A DNA stretch of 64,000 nucleotides, from the IMG/VR virus record IMGVR_UViG_3300026518_000011, positions 1 to 64,000 of that record. One strand, 5' to 3'. Each line of letters starts with the position of its first letter. The stretch's first letter is position 1. Under the pieces are notes generated by a model. The model was not told where the DNA came from, made no database searches, and saw only the letters and a program-made list of their open reading frames with translations. A program made the translations under genes and the position numbers. Shown one piece after another: positions 4,174-60,559 of this stretch. The DNA is from a virus.

Positions 4174-4402
4174 CCAATATTATTTCTATTGGCCTGTAAT
4201 TATTGATGGTGTGGTTCACCGGAGCTATGCTTTCATCAAGTGTAACATTGGACATGACAATCAGGGTTGTAAACTTTTGGTTCGGGGCATGGTTGATTGC
4301 GTGACCCCTATTGATGATGGTCAAATTCATAGGGTGGATAGTCATCGCATTGGTATTTTTGCGGTGCTGGATTATATTATTGACAAATGGCTATTGCCAT
4401 AA
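4166..4402 (+). CDS. hypothetical protein, 78 aa, GTG start
   Basis: Unknown. The frame opens at GTG 4166, very close to a strong GAGGAGG site (4156-4162). An ATG at 4170 in another frame has better spacing but gives only nine codons, so the GTG frame is taken as the gene; slippage or a leader peptide cannot be excluded. The product is rich in aromatic residues and histidine, with a hydrophobic C-terminal helix (FAVLDYIIDKWLL). Its last codons contain the -35 box of the promoter for the RNA that follows. Confidence 0.55.
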   Translation: MHDQYYFYWPVIIDGVVHRSYAFIKCNIGHDNQGCKLLVRGMVDCVTPIDDGQIHRVDSHRIGIFAVLDYIIDKWLLP

Positions 4403-4422
4403 CACCCCAACATACCTATATA
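4394..4422 (+). promoter_or_regulatory. sigma70-like promoter of the structured RNA
   Basis: TTGCCA (4394-4399), 17-base spacer, TATATA (4417-4422). The predicted start point, about 4428-4430, coincides with the first base of the closing helix of the downstream RNA. Confidence 0.6.
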
Positions 4423-4427
4423 GATGT

Positions 4428-4588
4428 TGATCGTTAGTTTAATTGGAAAACGCTAACTACGAGATAACCGTAAGGACTCTCCTTGTGATTATGGTCTAGT
4501 AGCACCATAATTGGATGATGTGGTTAGAGATAGTTCGTTCACGGTGCTACTACATTGTGAACTGAGGGGTAAAGCCCTGCTACGATCA
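4428..4588 (+). ncRNA. candidate structured non-coding RNA with tRNA-like 5' half
   Basis: This 254-base gap between genes has no convincing coding frame but rich pairing potential. A 7-bp perfect helix joins the ends (TGATCGT 4428-4434 with ACGATCA 4582-4588). Directly inside it come T-A, then GTTT-AATTGG-AAAAC, which has the layout of tRNA positions 8-9 and a D arm with GG. Further in are a hairpin AAGGA-CTC-TCCTT, a 10-bp helix TAGTAGCACC (4497-4506) with GGTGCTACTA (4543-4552), a competing GTTCAC/GTGAAC pairing, and AGGG/CCCT near the 3' end. No tRNA anticodon or T arm and no CCA are found, so it is not an ordinary tRNA. Function unknown. Confidence 0.5.
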
Positions 4589-4603: not shown

Positions 4604-4632
4604 TTGACAAACAGTATTCCCTCCATTAAGGT
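4604..4632 (+). promoter_or_regulatory. possible sigma70-like promoter
   Basis: TTGACA (4604-4609) with a weak -10 at the 17-base position (TAAGGT) and a better TGTAAT five bases further. It would serve the genes from 4657 on. Confidence 0.45.
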
Positions 4633-4656
4633 GTAATCAAATGGAGGGAATTATAC

Positions 4657-4851
4657 ATGATCACTAAAGACGTAGACTCACTTACCAATTCCTGCATGAT
4701 GGAAATTGAAAAGGTATTCCGCAAGAATGGAATCGCTGCAGTGACCCATCGTCATTACATGGGCAATCGCAAACTTCTTCGTGGGATGATCGAGATGATG
4801 TTGGTTGATGCAGCCATGGATGAAAAAGAATCTGAAAAAGAATCTTCTTAA
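4657..4851 (+). CDS. small acidic protein, 64 aa
   Basis: Unknown. Good ribosome site (GGAGGGAA) before ATG. It is mostly helical with an Arg/His-rich centre and a Glu/Lys/Ser C-terminal tail (DEKESEKESS). Short early-type protein directly behind a promoter; no recognised domain. Confidence 0.65.
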   Translation: MITKDVDSLTNSCMMEIEKVFRKNGIAAVTHRHYMGNRKLLRGMIEMMLVDAAMDEKESEKESS

Positions 4852-43703: not shown

Positions 43704-46700
43704 TCATGAACATTTACTTGATCCACACTGTGTGCATTTCGAACACCCCTCAGAAAATACTATTTCTGTAGATTCGCAAATCTCACACACTGCACCATCG
43801 ATCACTTCACCATCCTTAACGTATGAGGACAGGAACTTTTTCACTTGAAACAGAAATGACCCTACGATGATATCATCAAGTTTATCTAATTCAAATACGA
43901 TATTCTTAATCAACACCCCGTGCCGAAGATTCAATGACACCACCCGAGCGATCTTAGATGAGTTACTGTCAGATGCAATCTTGCTCACAGTATTGTTGAT
44001 ATGAGTATCAGGGATGCCTTTATCCCTCGCCAACTCAAGCAGGGCATCAATTGCACTAGACGTCTGCACCGTTTTTTCGACCGCATTCGTATGCACGAAC
44101 AATGCCAATGGTTCAGTTTGGTCATGATTGTGTAATACCGTAAGATACCACTTACGCCCTTCTGCCCGCAACACTTTCATGGTGGCAGGAGAAGAGTCTG
44201 GCAGTTTAACATCATCCATGATGATTTCCTCATCACTACCAGCTTCAGATGGTGCCTCCGACAGAACCGACGTCATAGTCCCACTACGATAGGTTGTAAT
44301 CCCCTTGATATACTTTTCCTTATACGCATCGAGATAAACATCCTCGAATTGATCAAAAGGAAAATCATGTGGAAGATTCACAGTGTTATGAGACACCAAG
44401 CCATCAATGAGATACGTGTGGGTGTTTTCCACCTCAATATCATAGACCTCGTGTGGACCAATGGCTGATACACTGACAACTTTGACACCATACAAAGTAT
44501 CATCATATGGAATATCATGTTTATCTAAGAAATTACTTCTAACAAAATTATCGCGCTTCATACTATTGCGCATTGATCTCCTATCAGTGATTTCCTGTAT
44601 ACCATGACCAAAATTCGCCAAAATTTCATCCACCCGAGATTGGTCAATGTATCTCGGCCACACCCCATCTTTACATACTACCCTCTTATGGGCCTCCAGC
44701 GGAACAAATGGATGATTGCCATATACTGCACATGAGTATGCAGTATCGCTTAATACCCCCGTAGCTACATGCTTTTGGCCTTTATAGTAAGGTAATCCCA
44801 TGCCTGCGACCATTGTAGCTAACCCGTCTGCAATATTCTGCGAATACCCTTCATACAAAACTAGTTTCGTTGGAGGATTAAGATACCCATCTAGTGTAAT
44901 GCCGTTGATATATGCCCGTTGTATATGATGGGGAGATGCCAAAATTTGTGGGGGGATAATTTTTCCCACACACCCCTTCCCGAAATTTTCATTCAAATAT
45001 TTTACCAACGGGCGAGAATGAATAACGTGGGTTATCACCCCAGTTCGTTCATCTACACTATGCGCAGGTTTGACACCAAACAGAGACTCCATTAATGAAT
45101 CTGCAATTATACCTACAGACTCGTCCTTCTCTACAATACCAAAAGAATTCACGTTAGTAAAACCGTCTGCTGCAAACATTCCTAAAAAGGTAGCATACGA
45201 CTCCGTCATCACGGTGGGAACAGTCACCTTATTATATGTATGGTATGCAGAAAAATCCAATGATGGCATTGATATCATTGTTGCTTCATCTACGGATATA
45301 GCAGCGGCCTTAAATAGCACATAGCTGCCGACAGCCAATTCAGTGGGTTTCATGAACCCATGATCGGTTTTCAGTTTGTGATTTTCAGAGCATTTGATAG
45401 TTTGGCCATTGCTCATCGTAATTTCATAACACTCAGCAACGCCCCCATAATAATGTGAAGTTACCTTTTGATGATCCCCATTTTCATCACATACGTAATA
45501 CTCACGATTCGGGTCAATGAACGTGTCAGGTGCCTCAAAGCCATCAGAAAAATCCTCAATTGGAATAGCTCCGTGGTTTGTATTAATCATTGTTCCAGCA
45601 ACCACACACTTGCTTAGTGATGAATCTATCCACTTAGCAAACCCTTTCAGATCACTTACATGATCATCAGGTGTCAGAGACATCGCCGTAACAGCCCAGG
45701 TTGCGTCAGCATCCCATTCTCCACGATCCATTAACCACTTTACTCCATAATCGATGCACGGCACCTCTTTAGTCAATCCTCGGTTTCCGTCAATCTTATA
45801 CACCACGCCCTCATGCTCACCACGAAGAATATCCTCATCACCCTCTTTGGCCCATTTGAACAACTCAGTTTCATGCATCTCACCCTGCCAAAATTTAGGG
45901 GTACGCGACATTATAGAATCCGGCGTTTCATTTACAATAACGGTGCGGATATAGGATTGTGCAAAGATTGGTTCAATACCTCCTGACACCACATTAGAAA
46001 AAATAGAGGTATTCCCTGTAGGCTGGCATGACATCAATGCGGAATTGCGGATACCAACCCTGCGCAACTTATCCATATATTCATCAGATAGACCAATCAT
46101 TTTAATATACTGGGTATTCGCATGTTTCTCAGGATCACACCCAATAAACATACCTTTTTCCTCGGCCAGATCAATTGATGCTTCATGACAAGTGTGGGCA
46201 TAAGTCTTCATGATGAGTTCACGAAGTTCTGCTGCCTCATCAGATGCAAATTTGATTTTCATCATGTAGAGCATCGATGCCCATCCCATGATGCCACACC
46301 CAATACGGCGCTTCTCTCTCACATATTGTTCATACTCCGGCAATGGCAGTCTTGTATATGAATTTACATTATCCAAAAACCGAACCAACGTACGAACCAT
46401 GGTAGTGAATTTATCATAGTTGAATGTTCGATCTTCGTTTACGAATTGTGTTAAATTAATCGATCCTAAATCACAAGACCCACCAGGTGGTAGTAGTTGT
46501 TCACCGCAGTTATGAATCATCACCCCATTTGAATCAAATGCGTTAATACCAGGAACTTGACAGTCATATACGTCCATTACCCCGAGGTGTTCCATACCTT
46601 CGAATGTTGCTATTTTCTGTTTGCTATATGGCCCACGGGTATATTGTTCTAAGATCGCAACAGCCTTATTCTGTTTTTCGTAATCCTCAAATCCAATGGT

Positions 46701-48992
46701 ATTCACAAAGGTTGGAATATTGTCAGCCGATACAATTAATTCGTATTGTGCTTTGCACGGGTAATGCTTTTGTCCACCCTTACCGTCTGGTAATAGTTTA
46801 TCTGCTGCATCCCGCCGTAAATATAACTTACTGAACACCCCGACCCGTATCATCATTCGCTGAACTTCTTCTAGCATTGGTTTATCTGATTGAGACAATC
46901 GTATAGAGAAGCCCTTATCAGCATTTCCCTGCACTGAGCCATCAGCGTCAAATAAACCAGAAATAAACCCTTTATGGAATTCTGAGGAAGTTTGAACGAT
47001 AGTCGGTGTTATTTCTTTTGTGACGATACCAAATTTATGCAATAATTCTTGAACCATTTTATTGGTCATACGATACTCACCGCGACCTTTAATATGAATC
47101 CATTCCCCGCCGACAATCTTAGACACTTTTTCCATTATTGCATCAGCACCATCATTGGAAAAATTGGTTTGGTCATCTCCGTGCCAAACACATATATGAC
47201 CTTTACCCGCTGAGATATACCCATCACCAAAAAGAAGTCCTAGGATGTAGCCCTCATCCTTAGAGCCAATCCCATCCCATTTGGCATCACTGTGATCATG
47301 TATTACAACTCTGTCATTTTTTTGCATATCTTTCATTGGAACCCATTCGATAGACTTCTTACCAATGGGCATGGTGGCAATAAGATGATCTGCGGTTGCA
47401 TCCACAGAGAACCCCTCTTTGGTGATCATGCGGTATACATCTTTGGTGCCAGTTTTGAAAAACCCTGCATCTGTTGTATCATAGGGGGTGCCGTCTACCA
47501 GCAAGGTAGTGGGTTTGCCGATAAGTTCAGCAACGAGCTTGGGACCATTGATGGTTTGAATGCATGAATAGTCTGGAACGCATGGATTACTCGCCGTTAA
47601 TGTATTTCCATAATTATATGAGTAGTATTCATTGGCTCGATCCAGAAACATGATACCAGGTTCTGCACGATTATAGGTGGATTTCATCATCAAATCCCAT
47701 AACCATAGCACTGATACGGTGTTGTGAACCACAACCGGATACCCCAATGATTTCCACTCCTTTAGATCACCCTTCCATGTGGTATCGTATTCTGGATGTG
47801 TTGTATCGGGGAATACCAAATCCCACTTTAGATCCTCACCAGTGGCTTTAGCCTTAATTACCAATTCCATAAATTCATCCGTGGCATTTACGGACATATT
47901 GAATTTAGTCAATCGTCCCGGAGTTTGCTTAGCTTGGATGAATTCAATAATGTCAGGATGGTGCACATCAAGGATGCTCATCATCGCACCCTTTCTGATT
48001 TTCTTTTTAGCCCTCGTAGTAGATGCTTTAACTCCACTACCAGATGTTACAATTTTGGAAGATACATCAAATAGCTCCATAAACGCTATCGATCCAGGAG
48101 AATCTACCCCCACCCCTTCAATAAAGGTGCCGCGCGGGCGCAGCGCAGAGAAATTGTGCCCCCAGCCGCCTTCACTTTTCAAGGTCTGTGCCTGATCAGT
48201 CAGTGTTTCATAAATCCCAGCAATCGAATCTGGTGAATTCTCGATATGGGGTGAGACAAAACAATTATGGACTACAATATTATTAATAACGTAACTCTCG
48301 TCCTCATCAACCGAGATATTATAAACAATTCCGTTAAAAAATTCTACAGATTTGGTAATATCTCCATCATACATACATTTTTTGACATCCAAATACATTA
48401 CACCATTATCATGATGTATACCATCAACATCATCTCCAATGGTATTGTGCCCGAATACCAATTTAGTATTATCTTCAGAATTTACCCAAGAACCATCTGG
48501 TTGATAAAATGGATGTTCTTGGGTCACTGTAATATCTACAGGCAAATGCGGTGACGAGTATCTATCGATATCGCAAGACACGTCTCGTTGCATTGTGTTA
48601 ACCACCGATTTGTAGCTACCAGTATGGGTCAACACCAGATCACCAACCCTGATGTCTTCGATGGGGACCAGTCCCTTATTCGTGGTTACTAGATTACCAG
48701 CAGGAAAACAATTTATTAAAGTTGTGCCCTCGAATTCAGTTCCCGCATTGGTATAAATACGCCCCCCTGTGGTAGCAGTAAAATTGGTCAGCATATTATA
48801 GAATCGATCATGCCAGAGGTCTTTTACCGATTCATCCTCAACCGAGGCGATTGCGCCAGCTACTCGATGAAAGGTATCATTGATATCATTATCGGTATGA
48901 TATTTATATGTAGATTCCCACACCTCCTCAGCAAATGGATTAGTAAATTGTGTTTTCGGCATATTTGTGAAGGTGGGGGTGCTGTCAGCCAT
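43704..48992 (-). CDS. nrdJ: class II (adenosylcobalamin-dependent) ribonucleotide reductase with three inteins, 1762 codons
   Basis: Makes deoxyribonucleotides using a B12-derived radical. Without the inteins the protein is about 847 aa, with class II features: LIN|CFVSPHIENS (first redox cysteine), NP|CGEQLLPPGGSCDLGSIN (finger loop with the radical Cys and the second redox Cys), ALMSCQPTGNTS, SK|TVNLPHDF and KGITTYRSGTM. The last 30 residues have a Cys cluster (CEIC...CSKCTQCGSSKC), typical for class II enzymes. Vertical bars mark intein insertions; all three lie in conserved active-site segments. No class I small subunit is seen nearby. Both a late-type box and a sigma70-like promoter precede it. 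Confidence 0.93.
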   Translation of the reverse strand: MADSTPTFTNMPKTQFTNPFAEEVWESTYKYHTDNDINDTFHRVAGAIASVEDESVKDLWHDRFYNMLTNFTATTGGRIYTNAGTEFEGTTLINCFPAGNLVTTNKGLVPIEDIRVGDLVLTHTGSYKSVVNTMQRDVSCDIDRYSSPHLPVDITVTQEHPFYQPDGSWVNSEDNTKLVFGHNTIGDDVDGIHHDNGVMYLDVKKCMYDGDITKSVEFFNGIVYNISVDEDESYVINNIVVHNCFVSPHIENSPDSIAGIYETLTDQAQTLKSEGGWGHNFSALRPRGTFIEGVGVDSPGSIAFMELFDVSSKIVTSGSGVKASTTRAKKKIRKGAMMSILDVHHPDIIEFIQAKQTPGRLTKFNMSVNATDEFMELVIKAKATGEDLKWDLVFPDTTHPEYDTTWKGDLKEWKSLGYPVVVHNTVSVLWLWDLMMKSTYNRAEPGIMFLDRANEYYSYNYGNTLTASNPCVPDYSCIQTINGPKLVAELIGKPTTLLVDGTPYDTTDAGFFKTGTKDVYRMITKEGFSVDATADHLIATMPIGKKSIEWVPMKDMQKNDRVVIHDHSDAKWDGIGSKDEGYILGLLFGDGYISAGKGHICVWHGDDQTNFSNDGADAIMEKVSKIVGGEWIHIKGRGEYRMTNKMVQELLHKFGIVTKEITPTIVQTSSEFHKGFISGLFDADGSVQGNADKGFSIRLSQSDKPMLEEVQRMMIRVGVFSKLYLRRDAADKLLPDGKGGQKHYPCKAQYELIVSADNIPTFVNTIGFEDYEKQNKAVAILEQYTRGPYSKQKIATFEGMEHLGVMDVYDCQVPGINAFDSNGVMIHNCGEQLLPPGGSCDLGSINLTQFVNEDRTFNYDKFTTMVRTLVRFLDNVNSYTRLPLPEYEQYVREKRRIGCGIMGWASMLYMMKIKFASDEAAELRELIMKTYAHTCHEASIDLAEEKGMFIGCDPEKHANTQYIKMIGLSDEYMDKLRRVGIRNSALMSCQPTGNTSIFSNVVSGGIEPIFAQSYIRTVIVNETPDSIMSRTPKFWQGEMHETELFKWAKEGDEDILRGEHEGVVYKIDGNRGLTKEVPCIDYGVKWLMDRGEWDADATWAVTAMSLTPDDHVSDLKGFAKWIDSSLSKCVVAGTMINTNHGAIPIEDFSDGFEAPDTFIDPNREYYVCDENGDHQKVTSHYYGGVAECYEITMSNGQTIKCSENHKLKTDHGFMKPTELAVGSYVLFKAAAISVDEATMISMPSLDFSAYHTYNKVTVPTVMTESYATFLGMFAADGFTNVNSFGIVEKDESVGIIADSLMESLFGVKPAHSVDERTGVITHVIHSRPLVKYLNENFGKGCVGKIIPPQILASPHHIQRAYINGITLDGYLNPPTKLVLYEGYSQNIADGLATMVAGMGLPYYKGQKHVATGVLSDTAYSCAVYGNHPFVPLEAHKRVVCKDGVWPRYIDQSRVDEILANFGHGIQEITDRRSMRNSMKRDNFVRSNFLDKHDIPYDDTLYGVKVVSVSAIGPHEVYDIEVENTHTYLIDGLVSHNTVNLPHDFPFDQFEDVYLDAYKEKYIKGITTYRSGTMTSVLSEAPSEAGSDEEIIMDDVKLPDSSPATMKVLRAEGRKWYLTVLHNHDQTEPLALFVHTNAVEKTVQTSSAIDALLELARDKGIPDTHINNTVSKIASDSNSSKIARVVSLNLRHGVLIKNIVFELDKLDDIIVGSFLFQVKKFLSSYVKDGEVIDGAVCEICESTEIVFSEGCSKCTQCGSSKCS
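44385..45608 (-). other. intein 3 of NrdJ (408 aa, LAGLIDADG endonuclease, residues 1129-1536)
   Basis: Begins Cys1129 (CVVAGTMINTNHGAIPIEDF) after SLSK, with block B SENHKLKT. Endonuclease motifs are FLGMFAADGFTN (about 1269-1280) and a degraded AYINGITLDGYLN (about 1360-1372). Ends HTYLIDGLVSHN1536 with Thr1537 as +1 residue, giving the conserved SKTVNLP when removed. Confidence 0.9.
46509..47582 (-). other. intein 2 of NrdJ (358 aa, LAGLIDADG endonuclease, residues 471-828)
   Basis: Begins Cys471 (CVPDYSCIQTINGPK) between NP and CGEQ, with block B ATADHLIATMP. Two LAGLIDADG motifs: YILGLLFGDGYIS (about 582-594) and FISGLFDADGSVQ (about 676-688), both with the acidic residue. Ends MIHN828. 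The +1 Cys829 is the thiyl-radical cysteine, so an unspliced protein cannot act. Confidence 0.92.
48264..48710 (-). other. intein 1 of NrdJ (mini-intein, 149 aa, residues 95-243)
   Basis: Begins Cys95 (CFPAGNLVTTNKGLVPIEDI, block A), has a TQEHPFY block B, a block F-like FFNGIVYNISVDEDESYVI and ends VVHN243 followed by Cys244. No LAGLIDADG endonuclease region; the space between blocks B and F is too short. The +1 Cys is the catalytic redox cysteine of the reductase (CFVSPHI). Confidence 0.9.
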
Positions 48993-50021: not shown

Positions 50022-51293
50022 TCAAGCCGATGAGTGACTATCCACATATGCACGGACGGTAGGAGTGGGGGTTTTGATCTCACCAATGGCTTCCCCATTT
50101 TGGGAAACTGCTGCTAATTGAACCTGCTCCGATGGGTTATCTATAAATTTAATGGCTTCCCCATTTTGGGAAACTGCTGCTAATTTAACCTTTTCGGATG
50201 GGGTCTTAATATATTTAATAGCATTTCCATTTTGGGAAACTGCGGCTAATTGAACCTTTTCGGATGGGGTCTTAATATCGTAAATAGCATATCCATATTG
50301 GGAAACTGCGGCTAATTGAACCTTTTCGGATGGATTTCTGATATAGGCAAGGGGCGCTCCATTTTGGGAAACGGCGGCTAATTGAACCTGCTCTGATGGA
50401 TTATCAATAAACTGGATGACATACCCATTTTGGGAAACTGCTGCTAATTTAACCTTTTCGGATGGGGTCTTAATATATTTAATGGCTTCCCCATTTTGGG
50501 AAACTGCGGCTAAATAGAATGCCTCAGATGGATTTGGTATAAATTGAATTAGCTCAATAAACCCACCCATAATCCATTTCTCAAAAGGTAATTTAGTGGA
50601 TGTCCACTTCGCGGCTTCAAATTCTTGATAATCATCCTGAGTGATTTTTTCATCTTGATCATTCAGAAATTGTGAAGATTCAACATGCAGTTGTAATTTC
50701 GTCCCATTATGAATAATAACGTATAATGGGCCTGTTTTAGAATAATGATCAAAATAATTTTCACTATCAGTAGCAGCCGTGCACCATCTGGTCCCCCTAC
50801 CCCAAAAAATTGATGCTTCCTCAGTTTCAGGAATCACAATCATCCCGTCTTGTCCCTGATAGACCATTTTAGATTGATTTAATATCTCTTGTTTATATGC
50901 TCGTTGTTGAGCTTTGCCACTTATTGGTTCATCGGCATCTTTAAATTCATCTACAAGTTGCTCTAATTGTGATAACGATTTGATCTGTCCAAGATCTTTG
51001 ATCGATAATTTAGATTTGAATTTATTGAATAGATTCAATGCCATTTGTAATCTACTGAAGTCTTCGTATCGACGAATTCCACCTTTTAGATATGTTCTGA
51101 TGATCCATAAAGTGTATGACTGATTACGAGATGGATCAACATTAATAGCGTGATTTATGAACCCCTTAATAGTGGTTTCATCAGGATCATTTTGAAACGA
51201 TGGGTCATCAGATAGGCGATCATGCAGGCGGTTTCCCAATTGTAGATACGTTTTATCTACATCTACTGCTTCTATCAAATCTAATAATCTCAT
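50022..51293 (-). CDS. protein with WCTA domain and seven 22-residue repeats, 423 aa
   Basis: The N-terminal 245 residues have a helical part and a domain with the phage-typical segment FWGRGTRWCTAATDSENYF, then LYVIIHNGTKLQLHVES. From residue 255 seven near-identical 22-residue units follow: PSE.V.LAAVSQNG.AI.[YF]I., resembling DUF4116-type repeats. Two consecutive helices per unit would give a solenoid, probably a binding surface. It begins MRLLDLIEA, like other M[KR]L-type starts in this genome. Downstream of the GNAT-like gene with which it is co-transcribed. Function unknown. Confidence 0.65.
   Translation of the reverse strand: MRLLDLIEAVDVDKTYLQLGNRLHDRLSDDPSFQNDPDETTIKGFINHAINVDPSRNQSYTLWIIRTYLKGGIRRYEDFSRLQMALNLFNKFKSKLSIKDLGQIKSLSQLEQLVDEFKDADEPISGKAQQRAYKQEILNQSKMVYQGQDGMIVIPETEEASIFWGRGTRWCTAATDSENYFDHYSKTGPLYVIIHNGTKLQLHVESSQFLNDQDEKITQDDYQEFEAAKWTSTKLPFEKWIMGGFIELIQFIPNPSEAFYLAAVSQNGEAIKYIKTPSEKVKLAAVSQNGYVIQFIDNPSEQVQLAAVSQNGAPLAYIRNPSEKVQLAAVSQYGYAIYDIKTPSEKVQLAAVSQNGNAIKYIKTPSEKVKLAAVSQNGEAIKFIDNPSEQVQLAAVSQNGEAIGEIKTPTPTVRAYVDSHSSA
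50070..50531 (-). repeat. seven tandem 66-bp coding repeats
   Basis: Seven in-frame units of 66 bases encode residues 255-408 of the 423-aa protein. The DNA units keep the phrase that encodes AAVSQNG almost without change, so they spread recently by unequal exchange. Confidence 0.85.
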
Positions 51294-60534: not shown

Positions 60535-60559
60535 GCGTGTGGTCTCCGAAGGTTCATGG

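Follow-up and report, generated by a model that had tools for sequence, protein, structure and literature searches.

A tRNA-like structured RNA in a probable jumbo phage fragment and its possible relation to insert-bearing phage tRNAs

In the open-access literature searched, introns in phage tRNAs were first reported for the Lak megaphages, where they were called enigmatic and described as conserved, and where one may contain a tRNA gene of its own (Devoto et al., 2019, PMC6784885). Insert-bearing phage tRNAs are consequently a known kind. The paper on the Agrobacterium jumbo phage Atu_ph07 makes no mention of introns; a tRNA search of records related to the DNA analysed here returned two matches of 119-122 nt in this phage (MF403008.1). 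Both, at 68160-68280 and 323906-324023, are complete tRNAs with anticodon loops of 53-55 nt that hold a structured insert, and removing the insert would restore normal loops, Gln (UUG) for the former and Tyr (GUA) for the latter. As read from the sequence, the gene at 68 kb has a promoter-like TTGACA-17-TATATT and a terminator-like hairpin after its CCA. Atu_ph07 is in culture and its host strain is known, which makes insert removal directly testable.

A pattern scan of IMG/VR followed by a stringent filter yielded 19 further insert-bearing tRNAs at 16 viral loci beyond Atu_ph07. Apparent 'intron tRNAs' of 150-250 nt in tRNA clusters turned out to be mostly tandem-tRNA chimeras or noise and were filtered out. 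The insert-bearing viral tRNAs are otherwise complete, with anticodon-loop loops or inserts of 34-93 nt, several of which contain a T-arm-like mini-tRNA. The same pattern applied to bacterial and archaeal genome contigs gave at least one insert-bearing tRNA, in an archaeal record, among the matches listed: these tRNAs are found on many viral contigs and are nearly absent among the listed bacterial loci caught by the pattern. The insert-bearing tRNAs include:

L028 6907-7024 (Atu_ph07 323906-324023), insert-bearing tRNA
L052 8160-8280 (Atu_ph07 68160-68280), insert-bearing tRNA
L190, L108, L125, L171, L175, L183 and others, further insert-bearing tRNAs

Six inserts, representing two tRNA types on four contigs, differ in the letters of the outer stem and of the T-arm-like stem, yet both stems are fully paired throughout. 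The outer stems of the Tyr type read AGAGGC/GCCTCT, GATACT/AGTATC and GAAGCT/AGCTTC, and the T-like stems of the Gln type and the L125 relative read GTGG/CCAC, GAAG/CTTC and GGAG/CTCC. Such an insert is laid out as a mini-tRNA, in which the outer stem is followed by either a small hairpin or an unpaired segment, then by a T arm and, in five of the six, by AGTAA. Two other arrangements were seen. At L097 14444-14593, an apparent whole second tRNA with CCA is nested in the anticodon loop of an outer tRNA, and five tRNAs on two contigs (L138 1608-1842 and 4379-4488, L195 4442-4685) carry an insert consisting of a short hairpin and then ACAGCAA, which may represent another class of small tRNA introns. 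A T4 Rnl1-type RNA ligase was found in all 13 other jumbo records tested, and RtcB in none of the 13. This fits the joining of cut anticodon loops in insert-bearing tRNAs, but it is weak evidence because such ligases are common in T4-like phages generally.

The window, meaning the whole 64-kb stretch of DNA that was analysed, belongs to a 73,928-base IMG/VR phage record. Its topoisomerase subunit has its best matches in the metagenomic phage G001 (58%; IMGVR_UViG_3300026302_000005, 376 kb), the closest relative found, and, at about 44%, in the jumbo phages Atu_ph07 and Phosso. In all likelihood, the record is therefore part of the genome of a jumbo phage. The window carries two real tRNAs, tRNA-Lys and tRNA-Ile, at 24 and 109. 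Close to them, at 634-1353, lies a QueC-like protein (PHROG 1550), which suggests a modified guanine in DNA or tRNA. Further downstream, an earlier note had proposed a structured RNA of about 160 nt with a tRNA-like 5' half; over the 161 nt of 4428-4588, its features are as follows:

4428-4434, + strand: 5' strand of an acceptor-like helix, TGATCGT, pairing 7/7 with 4582-4588
4435-4436, + strand: UA, as at tRNA positions 8-9 (from the sequence)
4437-4451, + strand: D-arm-like GTTT-AATTGGA-AAAC with 4/4 pairs and with A14, R15, G18G19 and A21
4453-4460, + strand: 5' strand of an extended anticodon-stem-like helix, CTAACTAC, 8 bp with 4520-4527 in both the MFE and centroid structures
4461-4481, + strand: predicted hairpin H1 (MFE), GAGA/TCTC with inner CC[GTAA]GG, a GNRA-type tetraloop
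4488-4511, + strand: hairpin H2, stem strands ATTATGGT and ACCATAAT (8/8 bp) around the loop CTAGTAGC
4520-4527, + strand: 3' strand of the predicted extended anticodon-stem-like helix, GTGGTTAG
4528-4532, + strand: AGATA, 5 nt where a tRNA has its variable region
4537-4562, + strand: predicted hairpin B, 10 bp (two of them G-U) with hexaloop CTACTA, reached via a short linker after AGATA
4565-4578, + strand: predicted hairpin AGGG-GTAAAG-CCCT (MFE) in the place of the T arm, with no TTCRA loop
4582-4588, + strand: 3' strand of the acceptor-like helix, ACGATCA, followed by GCT and not CCA

Minimum-free-energy folding, which the earlier note had proposed as a check, gave -49.7 kcal/mol for 4428-4588 compared with a shuffle mean of -37.1 (z -3.3), better than 200 of 200 dinucleotide shuffles. 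A tRNA-like model drawn by hand places 47 nested pairs in the 161 nt with no mismatches, at -45.2 kcal/mol excluding a loop-loop contact. By this modelling, the window RNA is a real structured element. The perfect 7-bp helix, the U-A and the D-arm-like element that had been claimed were all found in place, and G26 of the tRNA numbering is present as well. The proposed tRNA-mimic layout was supported in its likeness to a tRNA but had missed the extended anticodon stem: CTAAC extends to eight pairs, CTAACTAC/GTGGTTAG, which enclose an insert of about 60 nt. GNRA-type hairpins resembling H1 can also be read in the G001 RNA described below (CTC[GTGA]GGG) and in an Atu_ph07 RNA (AG[GTAA]CT).

The earlier note had also described two mutually exclusive pairings, a 10-bp helix and a GTTCAC/GTGAAC pair. 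Both exist, the former as perfect complementarity between 4497-4506 and 4543-4552 and the latter at 4537-4542/4557-4562. Their exclusivity, however, applies only to the full 10-bp form: the two complementary segments are mostly loops of the intact hairpins 4488-4511 and 4537-4562, so that a kissing contact of 6-7 bp is compatible with both hairpins. The hexaloop CTACTA of hairpin B is fully complementary (6/6) to TAGTAG of the H2 loop (P 0.0012 in shuffled loops), and H2 and B probably lock by a kissing-loop contact. In 3 of 2000 shuffles of the gap, hairpins arose that had stems of 6 bp or longer and eight complementary loop bases, which is not a clean p-value, the criteria having been chosen after the sequence was seen.

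The tRNA resemblance was evaluated by scanning both strands of the 64 kb for a tRNA-like 5' half with an acceptor partner, which matched only at 24 and 109 (the real tRNAs), at 4428 and at 60536. Among 2000 shuffles of the gap, 7 produced a tRNA-like 5' half with a 7-bp acceptor partner; as these criteria too were set with the sequence in view, this is not a clean p-value. A rough gene tiling showed nine further gaps of at least 120 nt in the window; for some ten gaps in all, it is rather unlikely that any one of them would match by chance. A covariance model built from the window RNA alone (R1) was then applied to related and tRNA-bearing loci totalling 1.76 Mb. With E values up to 10 allowed, there were seven outside matches. 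Six of them overlapped ordinary tRNAs called by ARAGORN, although such tRNAs account for no more than about 2.3% and 6.3% of the bases in the loci searched; on locus L326, nothing rose above noise. Both the scan and the identity of these matches support the claim of a structured non-coding RNA with a tRNA-like 5' half, and the tRNA resemblance holds up beyond its first description.

The surroundings of the RNA were less in line with the earlier note. The gap indeed has no good coding frame, with no open frame above 45 aa within it, whereas the promoter assigned to the RNA was not borne out: its 9/12 matches, without the final T, are not above chance, and the region holds 3 promoter-like sites compared with 3.0 expected from shuffles. 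No terminator for the RNA was found at the locus. The features bearing on this are:

4394-4422, + strand: TTGCCA-17-TATATA, the proposed promoter, at chance level
4604-4609, + strand: TTGACA, likely the -35 of a separate promoter of the next gene, and also seen before the homologue of that gene in G001 and G016
4657-4851, + strand: the next gene, 64 aa and real, with relatives at 45-56% and 39% identity

The window RNA ends 68 nt upstream of this 64-aa gene, and it could accordingly be a structured RNA unrelated to tRNA, namely a leader or riboregulator of the 64-aa mRNA or a free sRNA, whose tRNA-like 5' half arose by chance. The 10-bp pairing competing with hairpins H2 and B could act as a switch in such an RNA, and the scan match at 60536 indicates that the 5'-half motif alone can arise by chance. 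Against this, the acceptor, the D arm and the spacing of the anticodon stem are all consistent with one another, and the R1 matches are tRNAs; moreover, the next gene apparently has its own TTGACA, as do its homologues in two relatives where the RNA is absent from this place. In G001 and G016, a protein gene sits directly upstream of the homologue in place of the window RNA, so the RNA belongs to a variable region that separates the tRNA genes from the next gene, and is not a conserved leader. An RNA with no tRNA ancestry is hence considered unlikely, but it deserves some weight. A perfect 11-bp hairpin at 4617-4650 (TTCCCTCCATT/AATGGAGGGAA) contains GGAGGG, the Shine-Dalgarno-like sequence of the 64-aa gene, and could serve translation control of this gene or be an operator.

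An Rfam search matched no family even at E 10, in agreement with the earlier statement that no known family is recognised. The note had missed, though, that the layout has kin, namely the complete tRNAs of related jumbo phages whose anticodon loops carry inserts. A tmRNA (RF00023; no Rfam match, and no tmRNA in a default ARAGORN run), a group I intron (no Rfam match) and a bacterial Y RNA (YrlA; no match to the Rfam library at E 10) were rejected. No DNA relatives of the RNA were found in phages or plasmids, its exact 21-nt core had no match in IMG/VR, and no close sequence homologue turned up in the collections searched, including related phages. Going through single neighbouring proteins gave nothing or a false match, locus L002 being a stretch within an unrelated 807-aa frame.

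With tRNA (RF00005), the RNA shares the acceptor helix (7/7), the D arm (4/4, with A14 and G18G19) and the position of the anticodon stem. In contrast to the 7-nt anticodon loop with U33 of a tRNA, about 60 nt are enclosed and position 33 is A; where a tRNA has a T arm with a TTCRA loop, there is AGGG-GTAAAG-CCCT and no T stem adjoining the acceptor strand. At 161 nt and without CCA, it is unmatched by the Rfam tRNA model and was not called as a tRNA by ARAGORN, which with introns allowed and lowered thresholds produced only mutually contradictory calls on the window. Since the T loop, U33 and CCA are absent, annotating this tRNA-like RNA as a functional tRNA would be inappropriate.

These differences bear on two explanations in which the RNA is a more ordinary tRNA gene. 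It could be an intron-bearing pre-tRNA from which the anticodon-loop insert is removed, with the ends joined by a phage T4-type RNA ligase, to give a working tRNA. The position and size of the insert fit the insert-bearing class, phage tRNA introns are published (PMC6784885), and the ligase distribution given above is compatible with it. The missing T stem and T loop (by eye, no T-stem partner adjoins the acceptor strand), the A at position 33 and the missing CCA make this explanation improbable, and the ligase adds little, being common in T4-like phages; none was found in the 74-kb fragment that carries the window. Alternatively, a former insert-bearing tRNA may have lost its T arm and decayed into an inactive pseudogene, as the loss of T arm, U33 and CCA and the failure to find the RNA by sequence in relatives might suggest. 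Decay should bring mismatches, though, and the 47 pairs in 161 nt have none, in a fold far better than those of shuffles; a pseudogene is thus also rather improbable.

A decoding role is unlikely because the window RNA has no T loop, an A at position 33 and no anticodon loop, while its unbroken helices argue against a dead gene; together, these points favour a tRNA mimic that tRNA-handling enzymes could bind. My best reading, with about even confidence, is that a jumbo phage here encodes a structured, tRNA-derived RNA which probably does not decode and which represents a remodelled form of the insert-bearing phage tRNAs. Such an RNA would have retained from its tRNA ancestor an acceptor-like helix, the D arm and the position of the anticodon stem, with a three-way junction (GNRA-capped H1 and long H2) substituting for the anticodon loop, hairpin B occupying the place of the variable arm, and a hairpin without a T loop substituting for the T arm. 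If expressed, its acceptor/D-arm face might let tRNA-handling enzymes bind it, the insert would make it unusable for translation, and it may act as a stable tRNA mimic or decoy, e.g. for host tRNA-cutting defences. Taken by itself, the decoy step carries much less certainty, and the complete scenario, a kissing-loop-held non-decoding RNA that evolved from an intron-bearing tRNA into a tRNA mimic against tRNA-targeting host defences, is tentative and on the whole doubtful. If the best reading is true, the window RNA would show how an insert-bearing tRNA can turn into a new kind of structured RNA.

The window RNA is best filed beside the insert-bearing phage tRNAs without full membership. Like the Lak tRNAs, it has a phage tRNA body with inserted extra sequence, and the insert is correctly placed; the Lak tRNAs, however, are called as tRNAs with the insert in an otherwise complete tRNA, while here the remaining tRNA is incomplete, with T loop, U33 and CCA missing, an insert that forms a three-way junction, and an extra arm. 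With the Atu_ph07 tRNAs it shares acceptor, TA, D arm, anticodon stem and an insert made of a small and a longer hairpin; it also resembles them as a solo gene with its own promoter-like sequence, the one at the window RNA being at chance level. The Atu_ph07 tRNAs differ in their canonical T arm, a T-arm-like hairpin within the insert and a restorable anticodon loop. Synteny with the Atu_ph07 RNA at 68160-68280 was dropped because it was based on one 28%-identical protein.

The nearest counterpart lies in G001 (locus L027, 3359-3525), where an RNA of ~167 nt adjoins a tRNA-Ile and has acceptor, D arm, anticodon stem, T arm and CCA. Its insert is a three-way junction with a GNRA hairpin and a long hairpin, and an arm with the hexaloop TCCTAG is complementary over 5 bp to its H2 loop (P 0.014 in shuffled loops). 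The two RNAs are alike in overall layout, loop-loop complementarity and tRNA-Lys/Ile neighbourhood, but the G001 RNA has a canonical T arm and CCA, is GC-richer and shows little sequence similarity. Homology is suggested by architecture and neighbourhood but not proven, since R1 aligns with the G001 RNA end to end but weakly (5.9 bits) and scores ordinary tRNAs of the same cluster as high or higher. This result counts against the best reading, as do the failure to find a close homologue, the missing T loop, U33 and CCA, the protein gene in G001 and G016 and the silence of the Rfam tRNA model and ARAGORN on the window RNA.

Elsewhere in the window, a Hint domain (PF13403, E 1e-42) makes up most of the small protein at 2146-2787, with no obvious surrounding host protein, the 1762-aa ribonucleotide-reductase-like frame at 43704-48992 has several apparent intein-like insertions, and the protein at 50022-51293 contains several repeats, nearly identical to one another, that follow the pattern PSEKVQLAAVSQNG.AI.YI.
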